In this document: positions 5,593 through 64,000 of the stretch, piece by piece | Layout of the letters: the number at the start of each line of letters is the position of its first letter | How positions within the stretch are numbered: the first letter of the stretch is position 1 | Assembly: GCF_000230675.1 (NCBI RefSeq) | Contig: NZ_AGIK01000006.1 | Location: 62,001-126,000, forward strand | DNA: 64,000 nucleotides | Reading direction: 5' to 3' | From: Synechococcus sp. WH 8016 | Lineage (GTDB): Bacteria > Cyanobacteriota > Cyanobacteriia > PCC-6307 > Cyanobiaceae | The notes under the pieces: generated by a model | The model's database searches: none | Told to the model about the DNA's origin: nothing | What the model saw: the letters and a program-made list of their open reading frames with translations, nothing else | Translations under genes and position numbers: made by a program

Positions 5593-5601
5593 TTCGATAA
5601 C

Positions 5602-35854: not shown

Positions 35855-35887
35855 ACGATCCGCTAGTGGAGCTGAGGCTCCCTGAAT

Positions 35888-35958: not shown

Positions 35959-36019
35959 TTGATCTCAAAAGACCCGAACGAGATCTTTTTATGATTTGGC
36001 GTATCTTCACGCTACGCAA

Positions 36020-36257
36020 AATCCTCGAATGTCTTGCTCAGAATCTGTCTCATTTGAGATGGGTAGTTGGCTCTGCGTTGAAGGGCACTCGTGGGGCTTG
36101 CGCTTGTCTCCCTTAGGCATCTTCCCAGATCTTCGTGAGGACAACGCTTGATCGTGCGCTTGGGTTCGTGCCTCGCAAAGGGGTGCTTGGTTGTTGGGGA
36201 TGAGGGTTGAGCCTTGAGGCGTTGGCTCTTGTGAATGACGCGCTGGAGGTCGAGGGT
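36020..36257. other. Gene-free region downstream of tRNA-Cys
   Basis: No convincing coding sequence on either strand. A long minus-strand open frame crosses it but gives a low-complexity, Arg/Pro-rich translation without family features. The region is downstream of the terminator of the candidate small RNA and may be simple spacer. Confidence 0.4.
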
Positions 36258-36455
36258 TAAGCGAAAAAAAAGCCCCAGGAGCGTTCGATCTCCTAGGGCC
36301 TGAGTCGTTCTCATGCGACCGCACCGTTCTATCCGAATTGCTGAGTATTTGTGCTTACGGAATGCCGGCGGTTGAGGTTCGGTTCTCCGTGGCAGCTCCC
36401 GTTCACTCGCGCCTGATCTGCCTTTGTGCCTGGGTGGCGATGGAGGGGTTTCAGC
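36258..36455 (-). ncRNA. Candidate small RNA of unknown family
   Basis: On the minus strand a non-coding stretch of about 190 bases ends in a strong intrinsic terminator at 36264-36300. A -10-like TGTATTTT (minus strand, about 36466-36459) lies at the proper distance from a start near 36450. No tRNA, tmRNA tag, SRP core (GGAAGCAG) or RNase P motif is visible. The size would fit 6S RNA, but I cannot establish the pairing pattern. The boundaries are estimates. Confidence 0.45.
36264..36300 (-). terminator. Strong Rho-independent terminator (minus strand)
   Basis: Read on the minus strand: CCCTAGGAG, an eight-base loop, CTCCTGGGG and then a run of eight T. The nine-pair stem (one G-T) with a long T-run is a classical terminator. 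No minus-strand protein gene precedes it closely, which is why a small RNA is proposed upstream. Confidence 0.8.
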
Positions 36456-36488
36456 AGCAAAATACAAGTTCTTTGCGAGGAAGATCAG

Positions 36489-37262
36489 GTGAAAAATATT
36501 AGAAATAGGGTTTGTATTTTGCTTGAAGAAGAGCAAGCTGGTCGAAAAAGCACGTATGTTGTTAAGGCTATTGGGCTTTTAATTGTCTTCTCCATTCTGC
36601 TGGCAATTCTTGCGACGGAGCCGGCGGTTCGTGGCCCTTATCTTGATCTTTTGGCGAAATTAGACCTGGTCGTCGCAATCTTGTTTCTTGTGGAATACCT
36701 TTCCCGTTTATGGATTGCGCCGCTCCGAGACGGGGCGCGAAAAGGAGTGAGAGGCGCCTTGGATTTCGCGATCACTCCAATGGCGATTCTTGATCTTGTT
36801 GCGATTGCGCCAACGATCCTTGGATTTATTAGTCCTGAGCTCTATCTGCTTCGACTGATTCGTCTTGTGCGAATTGGCAAGATAGGGCGTTCTAAGCGCT
36901 TTCAGAAAAGTGTGAAGCACTTTAATCACGCTATTACGTCGAAAAAGGAAGAATTGCAAATTTCTGCCATCTATTCGGCTGTCGTGATTTGCATCAGTAG
37001 TGCATTGATGTATTTGGTTGAAGGAAGCGTGCAAACCGAGCAATTTGGCTCCATCCCTCGGTGCTTATGGTGGTCAGTGATTACCGTAACGACGGTTGGC
37101 TATGGAGATGTATCTCCAGAAACAGCAGCTGGAAAGATTGTTGCTGCGATGACGGCATTGTTTGGGATTGCTGTGATCGCAATCCCTATTGGCATTATTT
37201 CTTCTGGATTCACAGATTCTCTGAGTTTAGAAAAAACGGATTTAGATTCCAAGAGTGGTTGA
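36489..37262 (+). CDS. Voltage-gated potassium channel family protein
   Basis: A 258-aa six-helix ion channel subunit. S1-S3 fall in the first 125 residues, an S4-like voltage sensor LYLLRLIRLVRIGKIGRSKRF follows, and the pore loop carries the K+ selectivity filter TTVGYGD between S5 and S6. There is no RCK domain. GTG at 36489 is chosen because a GAGGAAG ribosome-binding site precedes it by four bases; a frame start at 36426 would add 21 unlikely residues. The gene is more AT-rich than its neighbours. Confidence 0.88.
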   Translation: MKNIRNRVCILLEEEQAGRKSTYVVKAIGLLIVFSILLAILATEPAVRGPYLDLLAKLDLVVAILFLVEYLSRLWIAPLRDGARKGVRGALDFAITPMAILDLVAIAPTILGFISPELYLLRLIRLVRIGKIGRSKRFQKSVKHFNHAITSKKEELQISAIYSAVVICISSALMYLVEGSVQTEQFGSIPRCLWWSVITVTTVGYGDVSPETAAGKIVAAMTALFGIAVIAIPIGIISSGFTDSLSLEKTDLDSKSG

Positions 37263-47089: not shown

Positions 47090-49245
<2,156 letters not shown>

Positions 49246-49246
<1 letters not shown>

Positions 49247-49464
49247 TAATTGGAGGCTTTCACCGTTCGAACTTGTTCTTCGAGTTGATGAAGGATTTGG
49301 GTGAGACGTTGAAGCTCTGGGTGCTCCGCAATGGAGGCATCGATGCGTTTCTGAGGGAGTTTGAGCTTTTGACCCATGCCAATCACATCTTTGCGTAGCC
49401 GTTCCATGTAGGCCGTGAGCTCTTCAATCGACTCTTGAAGTTCGCTCAAAGATGATTCAGCCAT
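49246..49464 (-). CDS. Small coiled-coil protein of the phycobilisome region
   Basis: A 72-aa protein of unknown function, almost wholly helical and charged (LSELQESIEELTAYMERLRKDV, then QLEEQVRTVKASN), suggesting a coiled coil. Its TAA overlaps the cpeU-like ATG by one base (TAATG), so the two are coupled. Possibly a marine-Synechococcus-specific phycobilisome gene; no function can be read from sequence. Confidence 0.7.
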
Positions 49465-50357
<893 letters not shown>

Positions 50358-50398
50358 GTCATCCGGTTTTTCTTTTTTTAACGCAAACCTCCATCTAA

Positions 50399-50905
<507 letters not shown>

Positions 50906-50935
50906 AGACGTTGGTTTAGGTCCTTAAACGGAACG

Positions 50936-50963
50936 AAAGGAGGCCAATTGGCCTCCTTTTTTT
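50936..50963 (+). terminator. cpeBA terminator
   Basis: AAAGGAGGCC AATT GGCCTCCTTT forms a perfect stem followed by a T-run (seven T in all). It lies 31 bases after the cpeA stop. The A-run at the 5' side also makes it potentially bidirectional. Confidence 0.9.
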
Positions 50964-51061
50964 ATGCCACTTCCCAAGCTAGCGATGAAGTGGATTGGTT
51001 TTCTAGTAGATTTATAGGGACGATTTGATGGGTTTCAAGCGTCTTTCATTGCTTTGATTTC

Positions 51062-51676
51062 ATGGCTTCTTCGAATGACCAGCGTCGTGAATTGGATGAT
51101 CTCTTCGCTGATCTAGCCCATCCCAATCCGAGGATTCAGCAAGAGGCTTATACAGCAATGGTTGATGATTGGCCGGAAGAATCTGTTCCACGCTTGTTGT
51201 CTTTACTCGATCAACCAGATGTTTCTTTGCGCCGCGCCGCGGTGCGTGGTTTAGGTGCTTTTGGAGTGTCGACTCTGCACCCCCTAGCTGACTTGTTTGC
51301 TCAGAGCACCGATGCAACGGTGCGGGCAAGTTGTGTGAAAGCCTATGCGCAGATCGCTTCAAACTATCCAGAGCAAGACTTCAGCTCCGAGGCGATGTCT
51401 CTCTTAGAAGTTGCTCTCGATGATGCCTCGCCAGTTGTTTCTCAGTCTGCCGTGATGGCATTGGGCCAAGTGGGCACGCAAGCACTCCCTCTTTTGATTC
51501 GCATTTGTAAGGGTGGCAATATTGCTCATATTCAGTCTGCAGCGATGGCATTAGCAGAAATTCCAGATCCTGCGGCGGAACAGTGCTTAAGAGACATTTT
51601 GGCTGACCCTGAAACAGATCCACTCTCGCGTGAGACCGTCGATGCTTCTTTAAGTCGGATGATTGGCCAAAGGTAA
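51062..51676 (+). CDS. cpeZ: CpeZ, HEAT-repeat chaperone-like protein for phycoerythrin
   Basis: A 204-aa E/F-clan protein. In Fremyella, CpeZ assists CpeY and stabilises phycoerythrin. HEAT units are evident: DDLFADLAHPNPRIQQEAYTAMVDDWPEESVPRLL, LLDQPDVSLRRAAVRGLGAFG, ATVRASCVKAYAQI and ASPVVSQSAVMALGQVG. Length and context next to cpeBA fit CpeZ. It is plus-strand downstream of the cpeBA terminator, so it needs its own promoter or read-through. Confidence 0.82.
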   Translation: MASSNDQRRELDDLFADLAHPNPRIQQEAYTAMVDDWPEESVPRLLSLLDQPDVSLRRAAVRGLGAFGVSTLHPLADLFAQSTDATVRASCVKAYAQIASNYPEQDFSSEAMSLLEVALDDASPVVSQSAVMALGQVGTQALPLLIRICKGGNIAHIQSAAMALAEIPDPAAEQCLRDILADPETDPLSRETVDASLSRMIGQR

Positions 51677-51713
51677 TGCCAGGGGAAGATGATCGCTGAG
51701 GCTTGGCAATCGA

Positions 51714-52640
51714 TTAATCATTTTCGTCGCGAGATAGTTGATTGATTGCAAGGTTGAAAATGGTAATCACGCTGCTGTCTTGTTCCTGCTCAAGTTCTGT
51801 GCGAAGTCTCGAGATCACCTGCGGATCCCTAAGTTTCATGAGTGAAAGTGCTGCATTCTTTCGTACTTGAGCATCTTGATCGCGCAACATTGGTAGTAGG
51901 AGTGGGGCTCCCCAGTTGGTGTCATGAAGCTTCCCTAGCAATGTGGTTGCCTCGGCTCGAACCTCTTCTTCTGGATCCTTCAGGGCATTTTGCAGAAGTT
52001 CACGGGCGTCAAGATCGTCAAGTTGTTGGATCTGATCACCCAGTGCTGCAATGGCGGCTGTTCTCACTTGTGCATGTTCTGAACAGGCTGCTTTGCGCAG
52101 GGCTTCTGGTGCTTTTGCTCCCACAAAAGACAACCCCCAACTCGCTAGTCCAATTTGCATTTGACTGCTTTTAGGGTTGATGAGCACATCAAGAAGGCCA
52201 TCAACCGACGCTGCACCAATGCATGCCATGGCACCCACTGCAGACCCTTGGACGACAGGATCTGGATCCTCCAATAGAGCTTCAAGGAGATCGGGTAGTG
52301 CTTTCACGTCATTAATTAACGTCAGCGTTTTGGCAGCAGCTCGACGAACGGTGACGTTTTCGTGCCGTCGCATCGCAATGCAAAGTGAGGGCACGGCAGC
52401 GCTGCCGACCGCACCCAAACTTTCCGCAAAAGTAAGTCGTAATAAGCCACGTTTATCACCTAATCCAGCCACCATTTTTTCGATGGCATCACTGTCGCCT
52501 GCAGGTATTTCTCCTTGGCGCAACTGTTGCTTAAGTCCTTCGGCAAGCTGCGCTGCTTCTTCTCCACTCAGTTGGATTTGATCAGAGCTATTGGGCTGAG
52601 CTGAAGGGTGTGACACTGGAGGATGAACGCGATAGTCCAT
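51714..52640 (-). CDS. cpeF: CpeF (MpeV-type) bilin lyase
   Basis: A 308-aa HEAT-repeat lyase. CpeF (called MpeV in early marine Synechococcus work) attaches the doubly linked phycoerythrobilin at Cys-50/61 of the beta chain. Repeats are clear, e.g. KRGLLRLTFAESLGAVGSAAVPSLCIAM, NVTVRRAAAKTLTLIND, DPDPVVQGSAVGAMACIG and EEVRAEATTLLGKL. The N-terminus (1-30) is Pro/Ser-rich. It is convergent with cpeZ and divergent from the unknown gene at 52688. Confidence 0.75.
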   Translation of the reverse strand: MDYRVHPPVSHPSAQPNSSDQIQLSGEEAAQLAEGLKQQLRQGEIPAGDSDAIEKMVAGLGDKRGLLRLTFAESLGAVGSAAVPSLCIAMRRHENVTVRRAAAKTLTLINDVKALPDLLEALLEDPDPVVQGSAVGAMACIGAASVDGLLDVLINPKSSQMQIGLASWGLSFVGAKAPEALRKAACSEHAQVRTAAIAALGDQIQQLDDLDARELLQNALKDPEEEVRAEATTLLGKLHDTNWGAPLLLPMLRDQDAQVRKNAALSLMKLRDPQVISRLRTELEQEQDSSVITIFNLAINQLSRDEND

Positions 52641-52687
52641 TATCGACCTCGTTCGATCGCTATGGTCATGAAAGCAACGAGATTTGT

Positions 52688-53122
52688 GTGACCAGCTACG
52701 TTCTCTCTCACAATCTTCAAGTCCAAGATTCTTCTGTTCCTGCCCTTGGCTTCGAGGAGCTTGCGATTGCTTTAAAGAATGAAGACGCCTCCTTCACCTC
52801 GGTAGAGGCGTTAACACATCCTCATTGGAAGTTAAAAATCGAATCTTCTCTCGATCCTGAGACGTTTGGAAAACGTCTCAGCTCGTCTTGGCGTGCTGTT
52901 CGAAAAAGCATGGGTCATGGCACGAACCATGCTGTGATGGCTTTGGGCGGCCGCAAAGACAGCCCCGGCAATCCCGGTGCCCCCCTTCAGGAAGGAGGCT
53001 GGGGGGTTGATGTTGTTGAGACCAACGACTCTGATGCGTTTTTAATCGCAATCAATTGGAGTGGGTTGATCTCGGGGCGCCCTGCGGATGGGGTGATTCA
53101 GGTGATTGATCAGCAGGGTTGA
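52688..53122 (+). CDS. Unknown phycobilisome-region protein
   Basis: A 144-aa protein, start GTG (VTSYVLSHNLQVQDSSVPAL). I do not recognise a domain; it is mostly helical in the first half (LGFEELAIALKNEDASFTSVEAL), then has a Gly-rich stretch (MALGGRKDSPGNPGAPLQEG) and ends WGVDVVETNDSDAFLIAINWSG. An upstream in-frame ATG at 52610 would overlap cpeF. It lies convergent to the CpcD-like small gene. Likely a conserved but uncharacterised marine Synechococcus gene. Confidence 0.65.
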   Translation: MTSYVLSHNLQVQDSSVPALGFEELAIALKNEDASFTSVEALTHPHWKLKIESSLDPETFGKRLSSSWRAVRKSMGHGTNHAVMALGGRKDSPGNPGAPLQEGGWGVDVVETNDSDAFLIAINWSGLISGRPADGVIQVIDQQG

Positions 53123-53137
53123 TCAGTCGCTTGTTCT

Positions 53138-53431
53138 TTAGTTTCGGCGCTTACGACCAGATCGCTTGGACGAGTTATTGCTGGAAGTCTCAGCCTTGTC
53201 CGCTTTGGAAGAAGCTGCCTTCTTTTGGGGCGTCTCTCCTCCGAGGCCTGATCCTGCGGATGCGCCGAAGCCCATGTCGATTGATTCGATTAAAAGGCCT
53301 TTGCTATGCATTGCCTGGATTGTCCTTGCAAGATGCTGGAGCGGAACTCTGATCACCTGTTGAGAGGAAAGACGAGAGCCCTGCTCAATCGTGGTTTTCA
53401 CTAAGACGGAAGAAGACTGTGTAGGGCCCAT
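53138..53431 (-). CDS. Small CpcD-domain-like protein with basic tail
   Basis: A 97-aa protein. Residues 18-52 (GSRLSSQQVIRVPLQHLARTIQAMHSKGLLIESID) follow the CpcD/rod-cap linker pattern (aromatic/basic, VP, then xxMxxIxxxGGxIxSI). The tail is Lys/Ser/Arg-rich and probably disordered, ending RSGRKRRN. CpcD domains cap or terminate rods and also occur in FNR. It could cap a rod or bind the phycobilisome core; the function is inferred from similarity only. Confidence 0.62.
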   Translation of the reverse strand: MGPTQSSSVLVKTTIEQGSRLSSQQVIRVPLQHLARTIQAMHSKGLLIESIDMGFGASAGSGLGGETPQKKAASSKADKAETSSNNSSKRSGRKRRN

Positions 53432-53577
53432 GTGTGCGAATCGAACCTTTCACTAGCCTCTCGCAGTTTTTTCCTTTGGCGAGAGTTGCTTAATTTTCGT
53501 TAGAGATTGATTTTGGCCCTCGCATGTCTCAGCATCCTTCAGACTTAGTGGATTAAGACCCAAAGGTGGCGACAGCG

Positions 53578-54894
53578 ATGAGTGGTGCTTTCGACAATAT
53601 CCATCCTGGACTGACGCAGCCTGACGCAATCCGAATGCTGTTGACGCCAATCGATCAGTTGGAGTCGCAGAGCGACCCTTACATGGCGGCTGCGCATCTG
53701 CTCAATTTTCCTGGTCAATCCACGGAGCAGGCATTGTTGGCTCTTGTTGACGATCAGGACCAGTCTCAGCCGAGGCGTCTAGCGCGTCGTAAGGCTGTGG
53801 AAGTTTTAGGCCGCTTGAAATGTCAGGACGCCATCCCTGCAATCGGTCGTTGTTTGAATAGTGATGATCCCTATCTTGTTGAGAATTCAGCATGGGCTCT
53901 CGCTCAACTTGATTGCCAAGTTGATGCATTACACGAAACCATGATTTCGTTGGTGTCCCGTTCTGATCAAAATCAACGTGTCCTAATCCAGAGTTTGGCG
54001 AGTCTTCAAGTGGCCTCTGCTGCTGGGGTGATCGAGCCATTGCAGGACAGTGAAACTCCCGGAGTTCGTGGCGCTGCCATCAGTGCTTGCATCAAGTTGG
54101 GCGCCTCCTGTGATCGTCTCGATGTGCTCCAACAGCATTTTTTGCTGTCAAATCAGATGGATCGGCAGTCTGGAATTCAGGATGCGATTGATTGTGGTGC
54201 TAGAGATTTACTTCCTGCTATTTTGCAGGCCCCAGTGTCTCCCGTGTTCAGAATGCGGGCGCTTCGTGCGCTTTGGCCAGAAGGGGATTTGATCTTTGGT
54301 GAGTTATCGCTGGTTTCAGTTGTGGATGCTCTGCTTAATGATCATCCTAGTGATTTGGAATTGGTCCATGAATATGATCAAGCTCCTACAAATGAATTTC
54401 TGATTCAAGAATTTTTTGGAACGGATTTTAGTCGTTGTTATTTGGCCCTTCAAACTCTCTGTGATCGATCAGCTGTTGAAATATGGCCGCTGCTTCATCA
54501 GCGTTGGACTGAGGAAGCTCATAATGATTATGGTGCACACTATTTTTTTGTAAAGCTGTTTGGAAGTCGTTGTGACTGGCCTAAGGAGGCGTTGCCTGTT
54601 ATTGAACAGATCTTAAATGAAGCAATCTTATCTCAACGTCCGCAATTCATGAAATCGAAGTCTGCTGCAGTCTTGTCAATGTATCGGTTGGGAGTTGGTT
54701 TTGAACAAGAAAGGCTCATTCAACTCTTGTCATCTGATTCGATGCCTTTTTGGGAGGTGAGATATGCTGTTTTGATGCTTTTGTCTGATTCGAAGTTCGA
54801 TTTGGACCGGGACCGTTGCCTTGAATGCTCAGCCGTTGATCCTCATCCTTTTGTTGCCGCTCGAGCCAAGGCGATGACGAGTGATTCTATTTAG
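53578..54894 (+). CDS. cpeY: CpeY bilin lyase (E/F clan)
   Basis: A 438-aa HEAT-repeat lyase. CpeY attaches phycoerythrobilin to Cys-82 of CpeA, helped by CpeZ. Typical opening repeats: AAAHLLNFPGQSTEQALLALVDDQ, RLARRKAVEVLGRLKCQDAIPAIGRCL and DPYLVENSAWALAQL; the C-terminal third includes DYGAHYFFVKLFG. GTG at 53566 is an alternative start four codons earlier. This gene is more AT-rich than the neighbouring phycobiliprotein genes. Confidence 0.8.
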   Translation: MSGAFDNIHPGLTQPDAIRMLLTPIDQLESQSDPYMAAAHLLNFPGQSTEQALLALVDDQDQSQPRRLARRKAVEVLGRLKCQDAIPAIGRCLNSDDPYLVENSAWALAQLDCQVDALHETMISLVSRSDQNQRVLIQSLASLQVASAAGVIEPLQDSETPGVRGAAISACIKLGASCDRLDVLQQHFLLSNQMDRQSGIQDAIDCGARDLLPAILQAPVSPVFRMRALRALWPEGDLIFGELSLVSVVDALLNDHPSDLELVHEYDQAPTNEFLIQEFFGTDFSRCYLALQTLCDRSAVEIWPLLHQRWTEEAHNDYGAHYFFVKLFGSRCDWPKEALPVIEQILNEAILSQRPQFMKSKSAAVLSMYRLGVGFEQERLIQLLSSDSMPFWEVRYAVLMLLSDSKFDLDRDRCLECSAVDPHPFVAARAKAMTSDSI

Positions 54895-54922
54895 CAGTGG
54901 TGATTGCTTTCCTTTTAAACAT

Positions 54923-54948
54923 AAAAAAGGGGCGAAATGATTCGCCCC
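54923..54948 (-). terminator. mpeBA terminator
   Basis: On the minus strand GGGGCGAA, TCAT, TTCGCCCC is followed by TTTTTT. An eight-pair stem 33 bases after the mpeA stop; it should end the mpeBA transcript, and it faces the convergent cpeY gene. Confidence 0.88.
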
Positions 54949-54980
54949 AAGTCGTTATGGATGAAAAACTCGGCTGAGAA

Positions 54981-55478
54981 TCAGGCGAGTGAATTGATCA
55001 CATAGTCAAGTGCACCGTTGTACTCGGTGAGAGCCTGGGGGCTCAGGTCACGAGGGGCACAACCGTCGTTACGCATGTGGGTGAAACCAGCAACGTAGGT
55101 GCCGGGGTCGATGCTGAGGGCCTTGTAAACCTCGCGCTGACCATTGATAGCCAGTTCGTCGAGAGGGCCTGTGCCGCCGACAACCAAGGAGTAGTTGATG
55201 AGACGGAGGTAGTGCACGAAATCGCGCTTGCACTTCTCTTTGCCTTCAGTCGCGCACTGGCGAGGCTGGCGGCCGGTGGCGCCGTTGGGGTACTGGGTGT
55301 ACACAGCGTCAACAGCACGCTGAGCAATCGCATCGTAGTTCTGAGCGATTTTTTCAGCAGCCTCGAGACGGGCAGCAGCGCGTTGCAGGGAACCCTGTAC
55401 AGCTTCCAGGTCAGAGCTGGTAGGGAAGCGAGATCCGCTGTCAGCGGATCCGATGGCGGTGGTCAGGACAGACTTCAT
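54981..55478 (-). CDS. mpeA: Phycoerythrin II alpha subunit
   Basis: A 165-aa class II phycoerythrin alpha chain, specific to marine Synechococcus. It has three bilin cysteines, Cys-75 ([13 protein letters not shown]), Cys-83 ([13 protein letters not shown]) and Cys-140 ([12 protein letters not shown]), against two in CpeA; the extra Cys-75 is the mark of PE-II. It starts [20 protein letters not shown]. Confidence 0.95.
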
Positions 55479-55519
55479 TGATTTTAGAGATGTGTTTGGT
55501 TGAAAATCTCAGATGAGCT

Positions 55520-56104
<585 letters not shown>

Positions 56105-56202
56105 TCACCCCGGAACCGTAACTTCATCTGCCAGCTAGAAATCATTCCCCTCTGGCTTCTCAATACAAGTTTGCACTTAAAATATGAAGAAACTATGAAG
56201 CC

Positions 56203-57411
56203 TCAGCCCATTTTCTCCAAGACCTGAGTACACGACCATCTCAAGGGCTCCCAGGGATGGGTCTCTGCAAGCTCTTTGAGAAGAGGTTTTTGGTCATCGA
56301 GTTGAAGACGAAGGCAACTCCATGCGGCCGCAATTCTTGATTTTGAGTACTGAGGACCGGTTTCTTGCAGGGCTCGTCTCACCAGGTTGCTGCGTTCCTG
56401 CAGCTCGAGTAGGCCAACGCAGCTGGCCAGGAGATAGTGCACTCCATAGTCGCTTCCCTGGTTCTCCTCAAGATCGTCGATGAGAGCCAGGCGTTCCGTC
56501 GCTGGCATCTCGCACAAGGCTTTGGCGGCTTCGTATTGACGCGCCTCGTCGCGGTGTTGAAGTCCAGCCCGTATCGCTTCTGCTTCTGAGGGGATCGGAG
56601 AGGGGTTGGCGAGAGCAAGCGTGCGCGGATCATCCCTCAGGAGCGTTTCAAGCAAGGCGTCTGAATGGGTTTTGTTGATGTCTTCTCTGTTGCCTTCGGT
56701 TTGGGCTTTGGTAATGAGGAAGGCGCTTTTGGCCCGTAGCGGCATCGAAACAGGACAGCGGGTGAGCGCTTCTAAGGCCGCCAAGTGTTGAGCATCGCCT
56801 AAATCAATGACTGCCGCTCTGCGTCGTCCTGGATTGGTGTCTTGTAATTGACTCAGCAGTGGCCTCAAGCTTTCGTCTCGATTGGTTAGCCGTAGGGCAT
56901 GGGCGTGGGCCGCTCCTGCGACTAAAGGATTTAAATCTCCGCGCAGTTCCGCAATCTCATCGTTGCTATCTGGAAGGTTCAGACGCGTAAAGGCTTGAAT
57001 AACGGCCCGCTTTTGGTTGTCAGGACCGTTCAGTGCAGTCAGTAATTGCTGCTGCTGGGTTTCGGTGAGTGATGCGCCAATGCGTGCAATGGAATCAACA
57101 GCGTTAACGACCGTTGGTTCATCTTGATCAGTCAGAGCCTCAATCAAGACAGGGAGAGCCGTCTTTTGTTTTCGTCTGCCCAGAGCTTCAAGAGCTTTTC
57201 GTCGGGTGATTCGTTCATAGAGGTCATCGCTTTCCTTTGATGCAACCTCAATCAATCGGTCAAGAGACTGTTGCGATGTGCAGGCTCCTAGGCGTGAGGC
57301 AGCTAAGTACTTAACACCGGGATTATCGAGTTGGCTTGGATCAGTAATAATGAGATTGAGAGCATTCTCCTCACTCATTCCCGAAAATAATGTGTCAAAG
57401 CGCTCACTCAT
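56203..57411 (-). CDS. mpeY: MpeY/MpeQ-type bilin lyase for phycoerythrin II
   Basis: A 402-aa HEAT-repeat lyase of the CpeY/MpeY/MpeZ group, upstream of mpeBA. MpeY attaches phycoerythrobilin to MpeA Cys-83; the paralogue MpeQ is a lyase-isomerase that gives phycourobilin. Repeats: GVKYLAASRLGACTSQQSLDRLIEV, YERITRRKALEALGRRKQKTALPVLIEAL and EPTVVNAVDSIARIG, with DYGVHYLLASCVGLL near 340. MpeY is preferred over MpeQ because split rpcE-rpcF genes tend to co-occur with it; sequence alone does not settle this. Confidence 0.7.
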   Translation of the reverse strand: MSERFDTLFSGMSEENALNLIITDPSQLDNPGVKYLAASRLGACTSQQSLDRLIEVASKESDDLYERITRRKALEALGRRKQKTALPVLIEALTDQDEPTVVNAVDSIARIGASLTETQQQQLLTALNGPDNQKRAVIQAFTRLNLPDSNDEIAELRGDLNPLVAGAAHAHALRLTNRDESLRPLLSQLQDTNPGRRRAAVIDLGDAQHLAALEALTRCPVSMPLRAKSAFLITKAQTEGNREDINKTHSDALLETLLRDDPRTLALANPSPIPSEAEAIRAGLQHRDEARQYEAAKALCEMPATERLALIDDLEENQGSDYGVHYLLASCVGLLELQERSNLVRRALQETGPQYSKSRIAAAWSCLRLQLDDQKPLLKELAETHPWEPLRWSCTQVLEKMG

Positions 57412-57528
57412 TGCCTACAGGGAAGAATGGGATTTTGATGCCGGCACTTGTCTTAATGCCCGACGAGGCCAGAGCCTTTGGCTCGGGTTGATCCTTTTCT
57501 CTATAGTAGGGGTCAGCCTCATTGGTGA

Positions 57529-57840
57529 ATGAATGTGACGTCCGCATCTTCTGCATTGAGCGAGATCAACCGCTTTGTCAAAGCATTTGATTTGGATGAT
57601 GCTCTGAATACTATTTCCAGTATCGAGGATCTCAAAAAACTTCTCGTGGATTTTGATAGCCCGCTTTCCGGATCGTTAATCCCCCTTGAGCAGGCAACGC
57701 GGACCCCAAAGATTCTTGTTGACTCTGGTACAACTCAGCTGGGAATCCGATGGAGAACGCTTCAGTGTCCTGGTGGGCCTATTGTTCTACAAATGATTTG
57801 CGAAAAAGTTAATTTTGCCCTTTGGATTGAGGAGTGTTGA
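57529..57840 (+). CDS. Unknown 103-aa phycobilisome-region protein
   Basis: A small protein I do not recognise. Helical N-terminal half (LSEINRFVKAFDLDDALNTI, then SIEDLKKLLVDFD), followed by a beta-rich part (GTTQLGIRWRTLQCPGGPIVLQMI) and one C-terminal Cys. Divergent from mpeY and followed within three bases by the Nif11-like gene, so the two are a probable operon. Confidence 0.65.
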   Translation: MNVTSASSALSEINRFVKAFDLDDALNTISSIEDLKKLLVDFDSPLSGSLIPLEQATRTPKILVDSGTTQLGIRWRTLQCPGGPIVLQMICEKVNFALWIEEC

Positions 57841-57842
57841 GT

Positions 57843-58448
57843 ATGTCATCGTCTGAACTTGACCGGTTTATCCAAGCTGTCGTTGATGATCACGGCATTG
57901 CGACTGGAATTAAGCCTCTTGCTACCCATTATGATCTCGTCGCTTATGCAAACATCAGGGGCTTCTCAATCACATTGGTTGAATGGGGAAGGCATCTTGC
58001 GATGGATTGGCTTAAATCTGCCGATGCAGAATTGGAATTGCTTCAGCTTGCCGATCCTGCCCATTGGAGTTGGGCTTTTAGGCAACTGTCGAGTTGGCGT
58101 CCTTTGTTAATGGAAGGCACCCTTTCTGAGGGGTTGTTGGGAACGGCCAATTTTGCCTCCATCTCTGAGTCCGATGATCAAAATGGGTTTCAGGGAACGG
58201 ATGCTGTTGCTCAGCAAGAAAAGCCCCTCACGGATTCTGAGCGAGATGCGGCCCTGGAATCTTTCATTGAAATGCTTAAAAGTAGGCCTGACTTAAAAGA
58301 TCAAGTGAAGTTTGCACGGGATCAGGATGCAGTGATTGAACTTGCGAACGCACAAGGCTTTCCGGTTGATTCGTTGACATTATTACGTCGTTGGAACAAG
58401 GTATCTGACTTCTCCAAGCCGACTTGGTTTGGTTGGTTTGACGAGTAA
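57843..58448 (+). CDS. Tandem Nif11-like domain protein
   Basis: A 201-aa protein with two Nif11-type segments: LDRFIQAVVDDHGIATGIKP to YANIRGFSITLVEWGRHL (residues 6-50) and LESFIEMLKSRPDLKDQVKF to ANAQGFPVDSLTLLRRW (about 137-185). Each shows the family helix, the D/A-x-A-x-x-x-GF element and the following helix. Nif11 domains are best known as leader peptides of cyanobacterial RiPPs, but here they are fused to a Trp-rich middle and an acidic linker. ATG 57843 is preferred over GTG 57834. The stop is five bases from the convergent cpeR stop. Confidence 0.7.
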   Translation: MSSSELDRFIQAVVDDHGIATGIKPLATHYDLVAYANIRGFSITLVEWGRHLAMDWLKSADAELELLQLADPAHWSWAFRQLSSWRPLLMEGTLSEGLLGTANFASISESDDQNGFQGTDAVAQQEKPLTDSERDAALESFIEMLKSRPDLKDQVKFARDQDAVIELANAQGFPVDSLTLLRRWNKVSDFSKPTWFGWFDE

Positions 58449-58453
58449 TTTAT

Positions 58454-58762
58454 TTAGCTGATTTCTGCATAACGAGTTTGCGATGTTCCGCGCTTTGCCC
58501 AATAGGTCACAATGGCTTCTCCCCCTGGGCGGGGGACTGGAGCATTGGCTCGAAGAATTTTGAATGTTCGGTTTGGTCCCATTGGCCAATTGCCTGCAGC
58601 TGAAACGGAACGAATTCTGCCACCAAGTAATTCAATACAACGCTCAAACTTTTCGAGTTGACTTTGATCAACAGTCTCGAAAATAAAATCTGTTCCAACA
58701 CAAATCAAGTGTTGCGACCGGATCCAAGCTTTTAATTGTTTTTCCGCATCTAGCGCGGACAT
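58454..58762 (-). CDS. cpeR: CpeR, probable phycoerythrin operon activator
   Basis: A 102-aa protein matching CpeR, which is required for green-light expression of phycoerythrin genes in Fremyella. Recognised by LKAWIRSQHLICVGTDFIFETVDQSQLEKFERC, NWPMGPNRTFKILRANAPVPRPG and VTYWAKRGTSQTRYAEIS. It is the last gene of the minus-strand series that includes cpeT and cpeS, as in the freshwater cpeCDESTR order. It starts 30 bases after the cpeT stop. Confidence 0.85.
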   Translation of the reverse strand: MSALDAEKQLKAWIRSQHLICVGTDFIFETVDQSQLEKFERCIELLGGRIRSVSAAGNWPMGPNRTFKILRANAPVPRPGGEAIVTYWAKRGTSQTRYAEIS

Positions 58763-58792
58763 TCAAACCACATGCTTGCTTGATCAACCATC

Positions 58793-59398
58793 TTATCGAA
58801 GCCAGTCGAGGTTTAGAGAGTCGCCAAGGGATGTCACTCGTTTAAATTTTAAGGGTCCGTGTTCGGAGCCCCATTTTTGCGCATGGGTTTCTGGATCAAA
58901 ACCGCGATCACGGCTAACCCAAGTTGTGCTGTCTACATCAACCTCGCTGATCAGATAGGTCAATTGCCCATCGCGCGGGACCAAACACTTGTGGCCTGGC
59001 TCCACTTCTCCCCGATAACATCCAGTTTCGACTTCATGAAAATGCATATCGCATCCACAACGTGGTGTGAGGGACTCCACTTTGAGGCTTCGGAGTAACT
59101 CTGGACGCTGTCCTGAGCCGGCAAGCCTTAGTGCATCAGCAAATCCAAAATTTTCAACAACAAAGATGTCTTGAATTTGCTGGAGTCGATGAATCCCTTG
59201 TCGATAGGGACTCCAGGGATCATGGTCGTAGCTTTGTTCTGAGTAGAAGCCAGGTCCTTTTAAGGTTTCCCATGGTAGGGGCCTGAAATAGATATTAATG
59301 TGAGCGAAGTCTTTTGGGTTGTCCTGAGATTGCTCAAAATTGCTGTAATGTCCAGCCAGTGTTTTGGCAAATCTCAATAATGCTTCTTTAGAGCTCAT
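58793..59398 (-). CDS. cpeT: CpeT, T-type bilin lyase
   Basis: A 201-aa CpeT-family lyase, the second T-type protein here. ALLRFAKTLAGHYSNFEQSQDNPKDFAHINIYFRPL, FYSEQSYDHDPWSPYRQGIHRL, CGCDMHFHEVETGCYRGEVEPGHKCLVPRDG are typical. CpeT is thought to act on the beta chain Cys-165 of phycoerythrin. Between cpeS and cpeR, as in the freshwater operon. Confidence 0.88.
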   Translation of the reverse strand: MSSKEALLRFAKTLAGHYSNFEQSQDNPKDFAHINIYFRPLPWETLKGPGFYSEQSYDHDPWSPYRQGIHRLQQIQDIFVVENFGFADALRLAGSGQRPELLRSLKVESLTPRCGCDMHFHEVETGCYRGEVEPGHKCLVPRDGQLTYLISEVDVDSTTWVSRDRGFDPETHAQKWGSEHGPLKFKRVTSLGDSLNLDWLR

Positions 59399-59413
59399 CG
59401 ATTATTGATGTAG

Positions 59414-59953
59414 TTACTGAATGTTTAAGCGTCTTACTTCTGATGCAAATGAAGTTTGTAGGATTCCCGAGCCTGCGGATGTCCGAAGGACGGAGGACCG
59501 ACAGCGTACGTTTTCTGATACAAACCAAATCCTTTCTTCTGCAATGGATTGCTCATATTGAGTCTTGAGCAGAAAGGTGCCATCTTCGAGAAATTTATAG
59601 TCGGAAACTGCGAATTCAGATTCTGCGTACCCTACGCTTCTGATGATTTTTCCTTCGGTCTCGTTGGTGGCGAGGGGAACGAGGAGGCAAGACCCAGATG
59701 TGACATCGCTGGGATCGTCAGGTTCCCAATCACTTTCTGCTTTCCATTCCATTTGAAATGGGCAGGTTGCGGTTGCCTTGCAATCTAAGTTTGATGATTC
59801 GATTAGTTCTTGAATACTGCTAGAAGAGGGATCAACACTTTTGATCTCTACTTCACTTAGCACGTCTTCAAATTGTTGGAAGGCTAGAGAGTGCCCAGAG
59901 CGCATCGAGCGCCATTTGCCTTCGCTTTGATGGACGAAAGTCTCAATATTCAT
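59414..59953 (-). CDS. cpeS: CpeS, S/U-type bilin lyase
   Basis: A 179-aa lyase of the CpcS/CpeS clan. The N-terminus EGKWRSMRSGHSLAFQQFEDV and the C-terminal AEERIWFVSENVRCRSSVLR match the family signatures GxWxSxRxxH and IERxWFxxxNxR. CpeS attaches phycoerythrobilin at Cys-82 of the beta chain. The start overlaps the stop of the preceding small open frame (59943-60215). Confidence 0.88.
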   Translation of the reverse strand: MNIETFVHQSEGKWRSMRSGHSLAFQQFEDVLSEVEIKSVDPSSSSIQELIESSNLDCKATATCPFQMEWKAESDWEPDDPSDVTSGSCLLVPLATNETEGKIIRSVGYAESEFAVSDYKFLEDGTFLLKTQYEQSIAEERIWFVSENVRCRSSVLRTSAGSGILQTSFASEVRRLNIQ

Positions 59954-60215
59954 TCAGGTGTGCATCAATCGTTGCCGAGGTGGCAGACGGATGAGGTTGA
60001 TTGATATGCACCATATTCACCATGGAGTCAATCATCATTGACATGGCCATAGGAACGCCAGAAACAGAATCATGAAAACTCTCGTTTTGCCCTGATGTTT
60101 TCCTGTTGGAAGTGTTTCTAAAGATTGGCATGTCGTTTGGAGTGATTGAAGGTGCTAACGGCTTTGGCTGGGAAAACGCCAGATTGGGCCCTGTGAACGA
60201 CCAGGGTCCAATCAT
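59943..60215 (-). CDS. Small hypothetical protein coupled to cpeS
   Basis: A 90-aa Met/Ser-rich open frame (MIGPWSFTGPNLAFSQPKPL to a VPMAMSMMIDSMVNMVHINQ stretch) between cpeE and cpeS. It is in the minus-strand operon and its stop overlaps the first codons of cpeS by 11 bases, which favours a translated gene. No domain is recognised, and chance cannot be excluded. Confidence 0.5.
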   Translation of the reverse strand: MIGPWSFTGPNLAFSQPKPLAPSITPNDMPIFRNTSNRKTSGQNESFHDSVSGVPMAMSMMIDSMVNMVHINQPHPSATSATIDAHLNEY

Positions 60216-60255
60216 GACCGATTCGATCTGCTCAATGAGCAAATCTCTCTAAGGG

Positions 60256-60990
60256 TTAAGCATTCGCAATAGAGATGATGCGACCGCGCTGGGCTTGGAT
60301 GCTTCTGATCGTTGTGGACAGGGAGTTGTAGCTGACAACTGATCTTTGGGCTGAACGACGCGCCGTTCCGAGCTGCACACGTGACGTCCAAATGATCGTG
60401 TAGCGACCACCACCGCCAACGGCCTTCCGAGCACCAGCGGCTGTTGGATTGGTGTTCGAAGCAATGCTGCTCAGCAAAATGGATGTTTTGCTGCCATCAA
60501 AGCCTGCATAGCCAGGGTCAATGGCGATGTTGCGTTGGTAAGCAACGGTGGTTTCGCCAACCACTGATTTGGCTGTTCTGGCATAGGGAACCGTGTCGAT
60601 CCCAAAATTCTTGAGATACTCGTCGCTGTAGGTGTAGCTAGCGATCTCAGCTTCAAATCCCTCTGTGGCAAGTCTGTTGACGTGCTCGCTGATCTCAGCC
60701 TGATTGCGCGGAGGACGTCCCATCAGGTGCTTGAAGTTCAGTTCGACAAAGCGATAAGGATTGTTGGGCTCGAGTGTGTAACGCCGATAGGTCTCGGATT
60801 GAGCCAAGGAAGTGATCAGCCCCTGAACGGTGAGATCACCGTTCATGAACAGCGCATCGATGGAAGGACAAACATCCAGCTCCATCAGATAACGGTTGCC
60901 GAACACCTGACGATAAGCGGCTTTGAGAACAACGGAGGCTTGTTCGGTGTCTTGGTTTGCGGCGCAGGTGAGGGTCAGAGGGGCAGTCAT
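60256..60990 (-). CDS. cpeE: Phycoerythrin I rod linker CpeE
   Basis: A 244-aa linker. Residues about 15-150 are a phycobilisome linker domain (ASVVLKAAYRQVFGNRYLMEL, YRFVELNFKHLMGRPPRNQAEISEHV), and residues 190-244 a CpcD-type domain ending STTIRSIQAQRGRIISIANA. CpeE joins phycoerythrin hexamers in the rod. A hairpin with a T-run lies between it and mpeD upstream, so its level may be lower than that of MpeD. Confidence 0.9.
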   Translation of the reverse strand: MTAPLTLTCAANQDTEQASVVLKAAYRQVFGNRYLMELDVCPSIDALFMNGDLTVQGLITSLAQSETYRRYTLEPNNPYRFVELNFKHLMGRPPRNQAEISEHVNRLATEGFEAEIASYTYSDEYLKNFGIDTVPYARTAKSVVGETTVAYQRNIAIDPGYAGFDGSKTSILLSSIASNTNPTAAGARKAVGGGGRYTIIWTSRVQLGTARRSAQRSVVSYNSLSTTIRSIQAQRGRIISIANA

Positions 60991-61003
60991 TGTTGGGGGG
61001 AGG

Positions 61004-61045
61004 GAAAAAAGAAGGCTTCATCACAGACGGGGGTCGGATGAAGCC
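61004..61045 (-). terminator. Terminator-like hairpin between mpeD and cpeE
   Basis: Minus strand: GGCTTCATC, a 14-base loop, GATGAAGCC, then TTCTTTTTTCCC. Nine pairs plus a T-rich tract resemble an intrinsic terminator, but cpeE follows closely with the same orientation. It probably acts as a partial terminator or processing stop within the operon. Confidence 0.65.
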
Positions 61046-61092
61046 AATGTGCGTCGAAGAAGTTGGAAGGGATGGGTGAATCCCTCCTTAGG

Positions 61093-62739
61093 TCACATCA
61101 CCTCGGTGATGGAGACGATCCGACCTCCGCGGCGGTGGATGTACTTCATCTGGCTGGTCATGTCCTTGCCAGACACCAAGTAGCTGGCATTGGGAGTTCT
61201 TTGGCGTCCACCTGCGGGCTGTGCTTGCACAACGATGCGGAACCGTCTCTTGGTGGGATCAGGGGAGCCAGCAATCGCGCTATTGCGGTTGCTGCGGACG
61301 GTTGTTGTGCGCCATCCACTGGGCACCGTCTTGGTGGCGACTGAGGTGACAAGGGAAGAGCTGTTCGCTACGGAGTCACTTGCTGCATAGCCTTCAGAGA
61401 GAGACAGATGGCGGTTGAAGGCCAGCTGGGAGCGTCCCTGCTCAGAGAGGATGCGCATGTAAGGAACGGTGTCCTCACCAAACGTGCTCTGGTATTCGGC
61501 GCTGTCGATGTAGCTATTGATTTCTGCTTCGTATCCTTCGTTTGCAAGGATTTGGATGTGCTCGCTCACCTCTGCTTGTGAGATGGGTGCACGTCCCAAA
61601 ATGTGCTTGAAGTTCAGTTCAACGAAGCGGTAGGGAGCATTCGATTCAAAGAAACGACGAACGTATTCGGAAGACAAACAGATCCCACGAACCAACTCAC
61701 GGGTGCTGTAGTAGCCCTCGGTGAACTTGCTTTCAGCAGCCAAGGCCCTCTCTGACTCCATCAAATGGGGATTGCCCATGACCTGGCGGTAGGCAGAACG
61801 GATCAATGCGTTGATTTGGTCCGCAGTGTCACCAGGGCAGCGTTGGAACACTTCCTGTTCCCGCTGACCAAGACCGAAGCCCACGTAGGCATCGCCACGG
61901 GCTGGCATCGAGTCGCCGCCATCGCTGGACTTGCGCACCTTGGAGGTGAATTTGACACCGGTTCCAGAGCCGCTGCTCTTGGCTCCACGGGAAGCCGAGA
62001 CGGAGCTGGGAAGCTGAATGTATGGAACGGCACCACGTGCGAGTGTGTTGCTCAGCTGACTGCGGGCGCCAACGGCACTGTCGCTGATGGCAAAGCCGCG
62101 CTCAAGAGCCGCGATATTGACAAAGCTGCTTGTGGGGATACCAGCCGCAGACGTGAATGAACGGGTGTAGGGAACAACGTCGTTGCCGAACACTTCAGCG
62201 TATTCAGCTGAATCAACGATGAAATCAATCACCGCATCGTGACCAGCGCTTGCTAGCAAGGTGATGTGCGCTGACATCTCACCTTGAGAAAGAGGAGGGC
62301 GACCAAGCAAATGCTTGATGTTCAGCTCAACTCCGCGCATGGGTGCAACGCCTTGGAAGAAACGCGCGCGATAAAACTCAGTTTTTGCAAGTGCCCGCAC
62401 GAATTCGCGCACGTTCCGCTCGCCATTGCAGAACTGAGCCTCCAATTCTCTCGAGCGCTCATGTTCCATCACATGGGCATTGCCATAAACCTGGCGGTAG
62501 GCGGCATTGATGGCAGCTTCGAGCCCAGCTGCGTCATCGACGGCATAACGCTGCATCGTTCCGCCATGGGGACAATCTTCGTGATTGCGAGGGCCAATCG
62601 CAATTTTCATTGAGGCGCAGGATTGGCGCAGAAACTCAGCGTTGCTCAGGGCTGGCTTGTTTGCTGCATTGCGATTCCTGCTGAATGAGACAGGGTTCGA
62701 ATTGAGGGAGCTGGCTCCGAAACCTTGAGAGGCAGACAT
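61093..62739 (-). CDS. mpeD: Chimeric phycoerythrin II linker MpeD (two linker domains + CpcD)
   Basis: A 548-aa linker, the same length as published for WH8102 MpeD (a fusion of an MpeC paralogue with CpeD). Residues about 60-210 are one linker domain (GVELNIKHLLGRPPLSQGEMSAH), 295-430 a second (RFVELNFKHILGRAPISQAEVSEH), and 495-548 a CpcD domain ending KYIHRRGGRIVSITEVM. N-terminal Cys-41 and Cys-56 (NHEDCPHGG) are candidates for a bound phycourobilin. MpeD joins PE-I to PE-II in the rod. Confidence 0.9.
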   Translation of the reverse strand: MSASQGFGASSLNSNPVSFSRNRNAANKPALSNAEFLRQSCASMKIAIGPRNHEDCPHGGTMQRYAVDDAAGLEAAINAAYRQVYGNAHVMEHERSRELEAQFCNGERNVREFVRALAKTEFYRARFFQGVAPMRGVELNIKHLLGRPPLSQGEMSAHITLLASAGHDAVIDFIVDSAEYAEVFGNDVVPYTRSFTSAAGIPTSSFVNIAALERGFAISDSAVGARSQLSNTLARGAVPYIQLPSSVSASRGAKSSGSGTGVKFTSKVRKSSDGGDSMPARGDAYVGFGLGQREQEVFQRCPGDTADQINALIRSAYRQVMGNPHLMESERALAAESKFTEGYYSTRELVRGICLSSEYVRRFFESNAPYRFVELNFKHILGRAPISQAEVSEHIQILANEGYEAEINSYIDSAEYQSTFGEDTVPYMRILSEQGRSQLAFNRHLSLSEGYAASDSVANSSSLVTSVATKTVPSGWRTTTVRSNRNSAIAGSPDPTKRRFRIVVQAQPAGGRQRTPNASYLVSGKDMTSQMKYIHRRGGRIVSITEVM

Positions 62740-62796
62740 GGGGGGTTGAGGGAGAGGGAAGGGAGAGGTGGTCGCTCAGGGCGACTGGGAAGGGCA

Positions 62797-62823
62797 GATT
62801 GGCGTTGCATGCAAACGCCAATC
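62797..62823 (-). other. Intercistronic stem-loop between cpeC and mpeD
   Basis: GATTGGCGTT (62797-62806) and AACGCCAATC (62814-62823) form a ten-pair stem with a seven-base GCATGCA loop, 12 bases after the cpeC stop. No T-run follows on the minus strand, so RNA protection or processing is more likely than termination. Confidence 0.55.
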
Positions 62824-62834
62824 CAGGATTCGGG

Positions 62835-63719
62835 TTAGTTCGAGGGGGTGATGCTGGCGATCTTCCCGCCTTCGGCATGAATGCGTTTGAACTGCTCAGA
62901 GAGCTTGTCAAAGGGCACGTAATACACGCGATTTGAGCGGGTGTATCGAGAGATGCGGCGCACGTTGTTGGCGCTGTAGCCAGTGACTTCGACCCGATAG
63001 GTCTTGCCTTCGTCGCCAGCACCAACGCCGAGACGTGTTGGCGCATCTTGGAGATTCTTGGAAGGTCGGAAACTCCAGCCCTGGGTCTCGATGGAGGACG
63101 GCGGTACCACCGCGAGAGGACGGTTCTGATAAGCAGCACCACCCAACTTGCTGGTGATTCCTGAGAGGTCGCCTTTCAAGCTGCTGCTGCTGTTGCCACG
63201 CAGAAGCTGGAAGCTCCATGTGAACTCCTGCATGGTGGCGCAGCTTTCGGTCTTCCATCCCCGCTGATAGGGAACAGTCCATTCACCAAAGGTGTTTTGG
63301 TAATCGTCTGAGTCGAGGAAGCTGTCGATATCGGCGCTAAAACCCTTGCTATCCAGGCGTTCGGCGTGAGTGCGCATCTCCTGGAAATCCACAGGCGCAC
63401 GACCAAGAAGATGGCGGAAGGCCAGTTCGATATAGCGATAACGAGGACAGGCATCAAAAAAGCGAGAGCTGTAAAGCTCGCTCTTGGCAACGACGCGAAC
63501 AAACTCGCGAACACTGATTTCGCCAAGTTTGAACTGGGATTCGGCTACGAGCTGACGCTCGCTGTCCATCACGTAGGCATTGCCGAGTACCTGCTTGTAC
63601 ACGGCTGTGATGATTTGCTCCTTTTTGGCGTCTTCATCGCCTGGAATCAGTTCAAGGGGAGCTTCGCTCTCTGCGGAGAAGCGCTCAACGCCGAGTAACG
63701 AAGCGGGACCGAAAGGCAT
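62835..63719 (-). CDS. cpeC: Phycoerythrin I rod linker CpeC
   Basis: A 294-aa linker starting MPFGPASLLGVERFSAESEA. The linker domain (residues about 30-170) has ITAVYKQVLGNAYVMDSERQL, VREFVRVVAKSELYSSRFF and YIELAFRHLLGRAPVDFQEM. A CpcD domain follows (YRVEVTGYSANNVRRISRYT to LSEQFKRIHAEGGKIASITP). The MPFGPAS opening and lack of an N-terminal bilin Cys favour CpeC over MpeC. It heads the linker operon. Confidence 0.88.
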   Translation of the reverse strand: MPFGPASLLGVERFSAESEAPLELIPGDEDAKKEQIITAVYKQVLGNAYVMDSERQLVAESQFKLGEISVREFVRVVAKSELYSSRFFDACPRYRYIELAFRHLLGRAPVDFQEMRTHAERLDSKGFSADIDSFLDSDDYQNTFGEWTVPYQRGWKTESCATMQEFTWSFQLLRGNSSSSLKGDLSGITSKLGGAAYQNRPLAVVPPSSIETQGWSFRPSKNLQDAPTRLGVGAGDEGKTYRVEVTGYSANNVRRISRYTRSNRVYYVPFDKLSEQFKRIHAEGGKIASITPSN

Positions 63720-63749
63720 AGAGCTCGCTGGGTGTTCGCTCTATATGTT

Positions 63750-63768
63750 CTGACAACCCTTTTGTCAG
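63750..63768. other. Small inverted repeat in cpeC leader
   Basis: CTGACA (63750-63755) and TGTCAG (63763-63768) around a seven-base loop, about 30 bases upstream of the cpeC start. It could be an operator half-site pair or a 5' UTR hairpin; nothing proves a function. Confidence 0.35.
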
Positions 63769-63840
63769 CAGGGCGATTCTTTATAAAGCTCAATCAATTG
63801 TGTTGGAGTGTTGCGTGACATGACCATTTTGGCTTTGCGT

Positions 63841-63871
63841 CGGCGGCTGGCCTGATAAGTGGTAGCCGCCG
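63841..63871. other. GC-rich stem-loop upstream of cpeC
   Basis: CGGCGGCT (63841-63848) pairs with AGCCGCCG (63864-63871) around a 15-base loop, 20 bases after the stop of the partial gene to the right. No T-run follows. It may end that gene's transcript inefficiently, or serve as a processing hairpin. Confidence 0.4.
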
Positions 63872-63891
63872 AAACTGTCGCGAAAGCTAGT

Positions 63892-64000
63892 TCAGGACAG
63901 TGATTCAAGCGCTTCACGCGTGTTTTTACGCGTCATTGGGTTCCAGCAGTCCAGCTCGAGATAAGGACGAGCGCGCAAGGCTCCTAATTGCTCTGCTAGG
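63892..64000 (-). CDS. Partial coding sequence, C-terminal 36 residues only
   Basis: On the minus strand a frame enters from the right edge and ends with TGA at 63892-63894. The tail reads LAEQLGALRARPYLELDCWN and then PMTRKNTREALESLS. Composition is protein-like, but the fragment is too short to assign. It is oriented like cpeC, so it is the gene upstream of the linker operon. Confidence 0.55.
   Translation of the reverse strand, partial: LAEQLGALRARPYLELDCWNPMTRKNTREALESLS

Follow-up and report, generated by a model that had tools for sequence, protein, structure and literature searches.

The unk9–unk8/unk7 Locus

The DNA analyzed here (64,000 nucleotides of Synechococcus sp. WH 8016, called the window throughout) carries two small genes, unk9 and a fused unk8/unk7, between mpeY and cpeR on contig 6 of a 2.69-Mb genome. 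The genes and the main features around them are the following.

56203..57411, minus strand: mpeY, divergent neighbor, coding for a CpeY-type HEAT-repeat lyase
57478..57507, plus strand: possible unk9 promoter TTGGCT-18-TATAGT, from a consensus scan and at chance level
57529..57840, plus strand: unk9, open reading frame of 103 aa, with homologues in 34 of 197 relatives, adjoining mpeY at most loci examined
57834–58448, plus strand: second open reading frame, 204 aa counted from GTG
57843..58448, plus strand: fused unk8/unk7, 201 aa from the ATG at 57843 (alignment A3)
58454..58762, minus strand: cpeR, convergent neighbor, named from its position in a published map and belonging to no Pfam family

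Both reading frames of the pair reported in the initial annotation are real (57529–57840 and 57834–58448). Its description of the pair as divergent from mpeY and convergent with cpeR was also confirmed, the stops of unk8/unk7 and cpeR being exactly 5 bases apart and cpeR being a name given by position. The preferred start of the fused gene is the ATG at 57843, two bases past the unk9 stop, because an AGGAG motif precedes it by 8 bases (57830–57834) and because the relatives align from this codon. The mpeY product reaches 231 bits against the CpeY profile, below the cut-off of 600, and is 64% identical to the product of the WH7803 gene at the matching place; for cpeR the corresponding value is 80%. 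The gap between mpeY and unk9 measures 117 bases, and its conservation stops at the 98% relative. Promoter and terminator scans around the pair were near chance (promoter consensus found twice, 1.7 expected), and no Rfam match over 48000–64000 reached its gathering score. The mpeY/unk9/unk8-unk7/cpeR layout is not due to chance, since the arrangement recurs in relatives. Comparison of Unk9, Unk8/7, and MpeY with WH7803 found synonymous sites saturated, and comparison with the 98% relative gave dN/dS of 0.08–0.33, depending on method and gene and based on too few changes for a conclusion.

The pair was initially taken as unknown. It had already been named: according to the available text of Six et al. 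(2007; PMC2246261), unk7–unk9 occur only in phycoerythrin II (PEII) strains, PF07862 is given for Unk7 and Unk8, and unk7 and unk8 are fused in WH7803. The genes of the window are the same genes at the same place, with the same PEII specificity, the same PF07862 assignment and the same fusion; what is added here is that Unk9 is seen as a third Nif11 protein. The text of PMC2246261 also calls the WH7803 fused gene “reversed with regard to unk9,” whereas in the record CT971583.1 it lies directly downstream of unk9 on the same strand, as in the window. The part of the initial claim that stood concerns function: none was found for Unk7, Unk8, or Unk9 in the open-access literature, subscription journals being outside the scope, and the accessible text of a 2017 paper (PMC5318389) has them as conserved hypothetical proteins.

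Two further small genes of the window recur in close relatives. They lie between a cpeZ-like gene and cpeY and code for a DUF2656 protein (52610–53122, 131 bits) and for a 97-aa product that matches no Pfam family (53138–53431).

The Fused Unk8/Unk7 Protein

Nif11 is a small protein module familiar chiefly as the leading segment of modified natural peptides. The fused protein contains two such modules, each followed by a conserved piece of its own.

57843..57986, plus strand: Nif11 domain 1 (Unk8 half), PF07862 at 37.7 bits
58062..58118, plus strand: Unk8 signature HWSWAFR...WR.LLM.G, from 15 aligned Unk8 sequences
58119..58217, plus strand: linker between the halves, holding the gene boundary in split genomes
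58254..58370, plus strand: Nif11 domain 2 (Unk7 half), PF07862 at 30.0 bits
58380..58445, plus strand: Unk7 signature tail LLRRW...DFS.PTW.GWF, from 14 Unk7 sequences

The PF07862 profile search that had been proposed as a check thus succeeded on both segments (cut-off 23.8 bits), and the whole protein scored 63.1 bits over two stretches. It also matches NCBIfam TIGR03798 (51.3 bits, cut-off 32.3) and is about 60% identical over its full length to the fused protein of WH7803. In the Unk8 signature, H, W, W, A, F, R, R, L, and M are invariant and S, W, and G nearly so (n = 15, including the outgroup locus L069); in the Unk7 tail, W, D, F, T, W, G, W, and F are invariant. Alignment A3, like A5 and A6, was built from a smaller choice among the source loci of A2, the Unk9 alignment.

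The one solved relative found, by NMR, is the Nif11 leader 9zn4, to which the Unk8/7 profile matches at E = 1.9e-4 and the Unk7 half superposes in VIA-align with Z 4.2 (58 aligned residues, 2.7 Å). A Foldseek search of the PDB with the fused model returned four rows, the best at E 8.4. The linker has a pLDDT below 50 at residues 98–120.

Both halves were found at 40 loci, fused at 11 and split at 29, some genomes being represented twice. A tree of the three Unk parts (identical rows removed, 35 of 39 kept; L069–L072 and L102 not in it) separates fused from split tips with support of 0.94. In a tree of MpeB and MpeA, support is 0.995 for separating the split tips from a group made up of the fused tips and L069. 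The placement of L069, the sole outgroup, within the fused tips is weakly supported (0.69–0.85). The trees hint at an older fused form that was split a single time, on the thin evidence of one long-branch outgroup that itself has no Unk7.

Unk9 as a Third Nif11 Protein

The initial annotation had described a double Nif11 protein beside a 103-aa protein. The two Nif11 domains hold, and the divergent Nif11 character of the 103-aa protein itself escaped it: the N-terminus of Unk9 is a third Nif11 domain, newly recognized here and followed by a conserved beta domain.

57550..57663, plus strand: divergent N-terminal Nif11 domain of Unk9, approximately aa 8–45, three helices in the model
57664..57840, plus strand: C-terminal beta domain of Unk9, from alignment A2, conservation, and five strands in the model

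Taken alone, Unk9 of the window has no match in Pfam (PF07862 none at E ≤ 1) or NCBIfam. PF07862 is found at E ≤ 1 in 9 of the 23 aligned members, the best at 3.4e-4, where the alignment (A2) comprises the window and 22 of 28 other loci (L090, L096, L100, L104, L105, and L111 left out; the 36-residue Rhodococcus sequence L112 was dropped from the homologue loci). Profile–profile comparison used the first 53 columns of A2, leaving out the clear relative L071. It scored 33.4 against six Nif11 leaders of the same genome (best shuffle 18.1), 28.4 against the Unk7 profile (best shuffle 21.1), and 24.2 against the Unk8 profile (best shuffle 16.7), and none of 200 column shuffles reached the observed score against any of the three Nif11 alignments. 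The more distant relative at L071 has a Nif11 match of 44 bits over residues 1–47 and keeps the C-terminal pattern of Unk9; Unk9 of L069 has no Nif11 match.

The predicted structure has three helices followed by five strands (pLDDT 88.7). Cys80, Cys91, and Cys103 are invariant across the 23 rows of A2, and a Gly-Gly-Pro of the beta domain lies between two model strands. No fold could be named for the model: the best Foldseek match in the PDB was at E 0.34, the best VIA match was profilin (Z 4.3) with sensor domains tied, and the best match in a viral structure library was at E 0.041. A sequence search of the PDB gave myosin at E 2.3 and nothing else, and PHROGs gave one weak match (16.5 bits).

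Profile evidence and model together point to a set of three modules, namely Nif11 plus beta domain (Unk9), Nif11 plus HWSWAFR...WR (Unk8), and Nif11 plus W...DFS.PTW.GWF (Unk7). Signature positions of all three are mostly invariant in the rows aligned.

Comparison with RiPP Precursors

Since Nif11 modules are known from peptide leaders, Unk9 might be a prochlorosin-like RiPP precursor, whose leader would run up to Gly82-Gly83 and whose 20-aa core LanM would modify in trans. The Nif11-like N-terminus, the invariance of Gly-Gly and the two Cys of the tail all fit such a precursor, the genome contains a LanM, and by TIGR03798 the fused protein would count as a RiPP precursor, although window Unk9 and three other Unk9 proteins have no match to that family. 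The remainder of the sequence behaves otherwise. Conservation is higher behind the Gly-Gly, with a mean top-residue frequency of 0.83, than in the Nif11 part, with 0.50. Having 11 of 20 columns at least 90% conserved, this tail ranks first among the three stretches compared, and in the model the Gly-Gly itself sits between two strands. Window Unk9 has no Ser or Thr in the tail, other rows 0–2. Neither L069 nor L071 retains both Cys, while L070 and L072 do end in Cys; aligned Unk7 and Unk8 rows have no GG near the end. LanM, the maturase searched for, is present in 10 of the 34 Unk9 genomes, once as a fragment (G006), and is absent from WH7803. A precursor role is thus very improbable, and, as far as sequence tells, Unk9 is not a lanthipeptide precursor, given the distribution of LanM, the conserved post-Gly-Gly stretch and the lack of Ser and Thr in the window. 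The initial annotation had seen neither a precursor core nor a modifying enzyme, and on both points it agrees with these data: the post-Gly-Gly stretch is conserved instead of variable, and no RiPP enzyme was found among the neighbors examined, the single LanM being on another contig.

The Nif11 leaders of RiPPs (prochlorosins; the MppE leader, PDB 9zn4) share with the Unk proteins the Nif11 helical bundle, as the profile match and the VIA-align superposition above show. They differ in that the Unk proteins lack a cleavage site followed by a variable core, carry a conserved signature after each Nif11 and occur in 24 of 34 cases in genomes without LanM.

The source genome has 13 Nif11 places. 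Its LanM (DUF4135, 332.8 bits) is located on contig 2 at 35691–36863, and about 10 kb from it lies a prochlorosin-like Nif11 precursor (L001) that ends in GG plus a Cys-containing tail.

Distribution and Linkage to Phycoerythrin II

Among 400 genomes of the family, MpeA (the PEII alpha subunit, E ≤ 1e-55) was found in 70, Unk9 (E below 1e-20) in 68, and both in 67, after weak Unk9 profile matches (E 1e-6 to 1e-3) resembling Nif11 leaders had been set aside. The three genomes with MpeA and no Unk9 (G016, G595, G603) are all 72–73% complete, and in G016 (73%) the start of a contig cuts mpeY, right at the spot where unk9 is to be expected. G030 alone has Unk9 without MpeA, and its MpeA match ends at a contig end. 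In 59 of the 67 genomes unk9 and mpeA lie on one contig, in each case 2.1–5.5 kb apart.

Among 197 relatives, Unk9 is present in 34, all within the 35 MpeA-positive genomes (at least 71% identity, one a partial copy), and Unk8/7 in 31 of the 34. The figure of 35 leaves aside an alpha subunit of G185 (66% identical, no Cys75, other family), and that of 31 leaves aside weak, Nif11-leader-like matches in G026, G029, G074, and G076. Neither Unk8 nor Unk7 was found in the Unk9 genomes G038, G092, and G119, which argues against the trio being a single fixed machine. The search of 386 genomes of the phylum gave 21 with a match, all from the same family.

In the samples searched, Unk9 is restricted to PEII genomes; since the genomes are related, the counts describe a pattern and not independent trials, and co-occurrence with PEII is common to anything PEII-specific. 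With the tie to PEII in the available text of PMC2246261, the 67 genomes having both proteins support the link to phycoerythrin that was drawn initially. Small proteins of this set are found in every PEII-bearing near-complete genome searched and are kept despite loss of mpeY, and they make a short list of knock-out candidates. PEII is an antenna protein that harvests light in marine Synechococcus. Marine Synechococcus is the second most abundant oceanic phototroph, as stated in the available text of PMC3877281.

Carriage of the pair by phages or viruses was considered and rejected: 28 pattern stretches in viral contigs yielded no confirmed Unk9 relative, and phage records had no match to Unk9 or Unk8/7.

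Two other records are mentioned here. L098 (DJYX01000159.1), filed as Deltaproteobacteria bacterium UBA6967, is a marine Synechococcus-type phycoerythrin-II region and is probably misbinned. G185, outside the family, has beside an MpeB-like beta gene a second phycoerythrin alpha gene (L116, 10029–10514), whose product is 64–66% identical to MpeA and has no Cys75. This genome has no Unk9, and its second alpha subunit perhaps represents an early branch of the PEII duplication.

Loss of mpeY

At most loci examined unk9 is divergent from mpeY, and Unk9 with Unk8/7 might therefore be obligate partner subunits of the lyase MpeY, as CpcF is for CpcE. This is improbable in view of four genomes (G017, G025, G003, G027) that have no mpeY between mpeB and unk9, G027 with at most a decayed trace, and that nevertheless keep unk9, unk8, and unk7 open; MpeY can hardly be the sole partner when it is lost and the three genes stay. 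Loss of mpeY is likewise reported for strain BIOS-E4-1 in the accessible text of PMC9705338. The best MpeY match in the four genomes is located elsewhere and is 45–48% identical. It is probably MpeZ, since the second MpeY paralogue of G008 and G054, which carry both, shows the same 45–48%, and MpeZ could be a partner in its turn.

At locus L080 of G017, about 1.3 kb (5086–6446) have no recognized gene where mpeY would be.

Divergent Loci and the Neighborhood of cpeR

Genus g9 (L070, L071, L072) and genome G078 (L069) have PEII alpha subunits of only 71–74% identity, with Cys75 present. Here Unk9 or a relative follows pebB, a phycoerythrobilin synthesis gene, at all four loci, and pebA precedes pebB at the two where this was tested (L069, L071). 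At L069 the genes pebA-pebB-unk9-unk8 are packed together, and unk9 overlaps the pebB stop. Unk7 was not found in three g9 genomes tested nor in G078, and Unk8 was not found in those three g9 genomes. With these pebB-linked genomes lacking Unk7, and g9 also Unk8, Unk9 gives the impression of being the oldest or the least dispensable of the three, Unk8 and Unk7 that of later additions or losses.

In three further g9 records (L113, L114, L115), the contigs that carry mpeBA and PEII-type linkers are separate from those of the Unk9 relative and pebB. Sponge symbionts with mpeBA are reported in the available text of PMC6363710, and genus g9 may be such symbionts.

The convergence with cpeR, five bases from stop to stop, raises the thought that the pair might regulate PEII expression or serve it as a light sensor, for example by controlling or titrating CpeR. 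Sensor domains are among the weak VIA rows of the Unk9 model (Z 3.6–4.2). As far as the accessible text of PMC3877281 goes, Unk10, a small protein with an N-terminal Nif11, belongs to the chromatic acclimation island together with fciA and fciB and occurs in island-bearing strains and in strains of pigment type 3c; it is likened to the trio here by description, not sequence, namely by its N-terminal Nif11 and its tie to PEII pigment genes. Regulation is nonetheless unlikely, as Pfam finds no significant DNA-binding domain and no cpeR-like gene was seen at the outgroup loci L069–L072, where pebB is the neighbor.

Proposed Function

We propose that Unk9 and Unk8/7 are an aid to PEII maturation or assembly that uses Nif11 as a docking module, with a probability of about 0.5. 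The proposal starts from the domains and their conservation, the confinement to PEII genomes across the sampled sets and the linkage to mpeY/mpeBA or pebB; binding, partner and site of action are its conjectural parts. Each of the three modules joins a Nif11 helical bundle to its own conserved C-terminal piece. The bundle would keep its docking role with no peptide to deliver and would hold a bilin lyase or an unfinished alpha subunit, and the C-terminal pieces would stabilize either the apo-subunit or the bilin while chromophores are attached or rods assembled. A precedent from outside Nif11 is the structured NHLP leader MprE7, a helix face of which binds its enzyme (available text of PMC12455567). 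The beta domain of the Unk9 model has no fold match that points to a ligand, which would count against a maturation aid. In E. coli, MpeV acts on CpeB and MpeB with CpeS and CpeZ, and the available text of PMC7948978 mentions no Unk protein, so the trio would not be needed for every attachment.

The closest functional likeness is to CpeZ, described in the accessible text of PMC7948978 as a chaperone-like helper of phycoerythrin lyases, accessory and not itself a lyase; the role proposed for the Unk proteins would be accessory in the same sense. CpeZ differs in structure: the two cpeZ-like genes of the window (51062–51676 and 51714–52640, named in this analysis) code for HEAT-repeat proteins, and Unk9 and Unk8/7 have no HEAT repeats. 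Nor does Pfam find other bilin lyase features in them (CpeS or CpeT domain).

The PEII specificity and the place in the rod gene region would also suit small structural components of the PEII rod that resemble linkers or caps. Such a role is improbable as well, for Unk9 and Unk8/7 contain no PBS_linker_poly or CpcD domain, whereas the three linkers of the window are readily detected.

A narrower and quite unlikely form of the maturation proposal concerns Cys75 of MpeA, taken in it as the single bilin site distinctive of phycoerythrin II. Nif11 modules would have been recruited without peptides as a stand-alone docking system for this site. It is no better than a long shot that Unk9, with Unk8 and Unk7 where present, presents MpeA, or the bilin made by PebA and PebB, to a lyase for Cys75. 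A paper from 2017 lists MpeA-Cys75 among the possible sites of MpeU and assigns no lyase. Alignment showed the Cys75 loop in 10 of 10 PEII alpha subunits, each taken from a genome with Unk9, and no such loop in the alpha subunits of 13 hand-chosen genomes that lack Unk9, among them the PEII-like subunit of G185. The loop thus tracks Unk9, a pattern that PEII itself explains equally.

The text available of a paper from 2022 (PMC9723758) calls a Nif11 protein iron-responsive. Nif11-cupin proteins (TIGR03890) resemble the Unk proteins in that Nif11 is joined to a folded domain and not to a short core. They are distinct from Unk8/7, which reaches 22.2 bits with TIGR03890 (cut-off 159.45), and from Unk9, the beta domain of which has about 58 aa and matches no Pfam or NCBIfam family. 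One Nif11-cupin protein is encoded in the source genome on contig 1 at 997950 (L004), with a TIGR03890 score of 289 bits.
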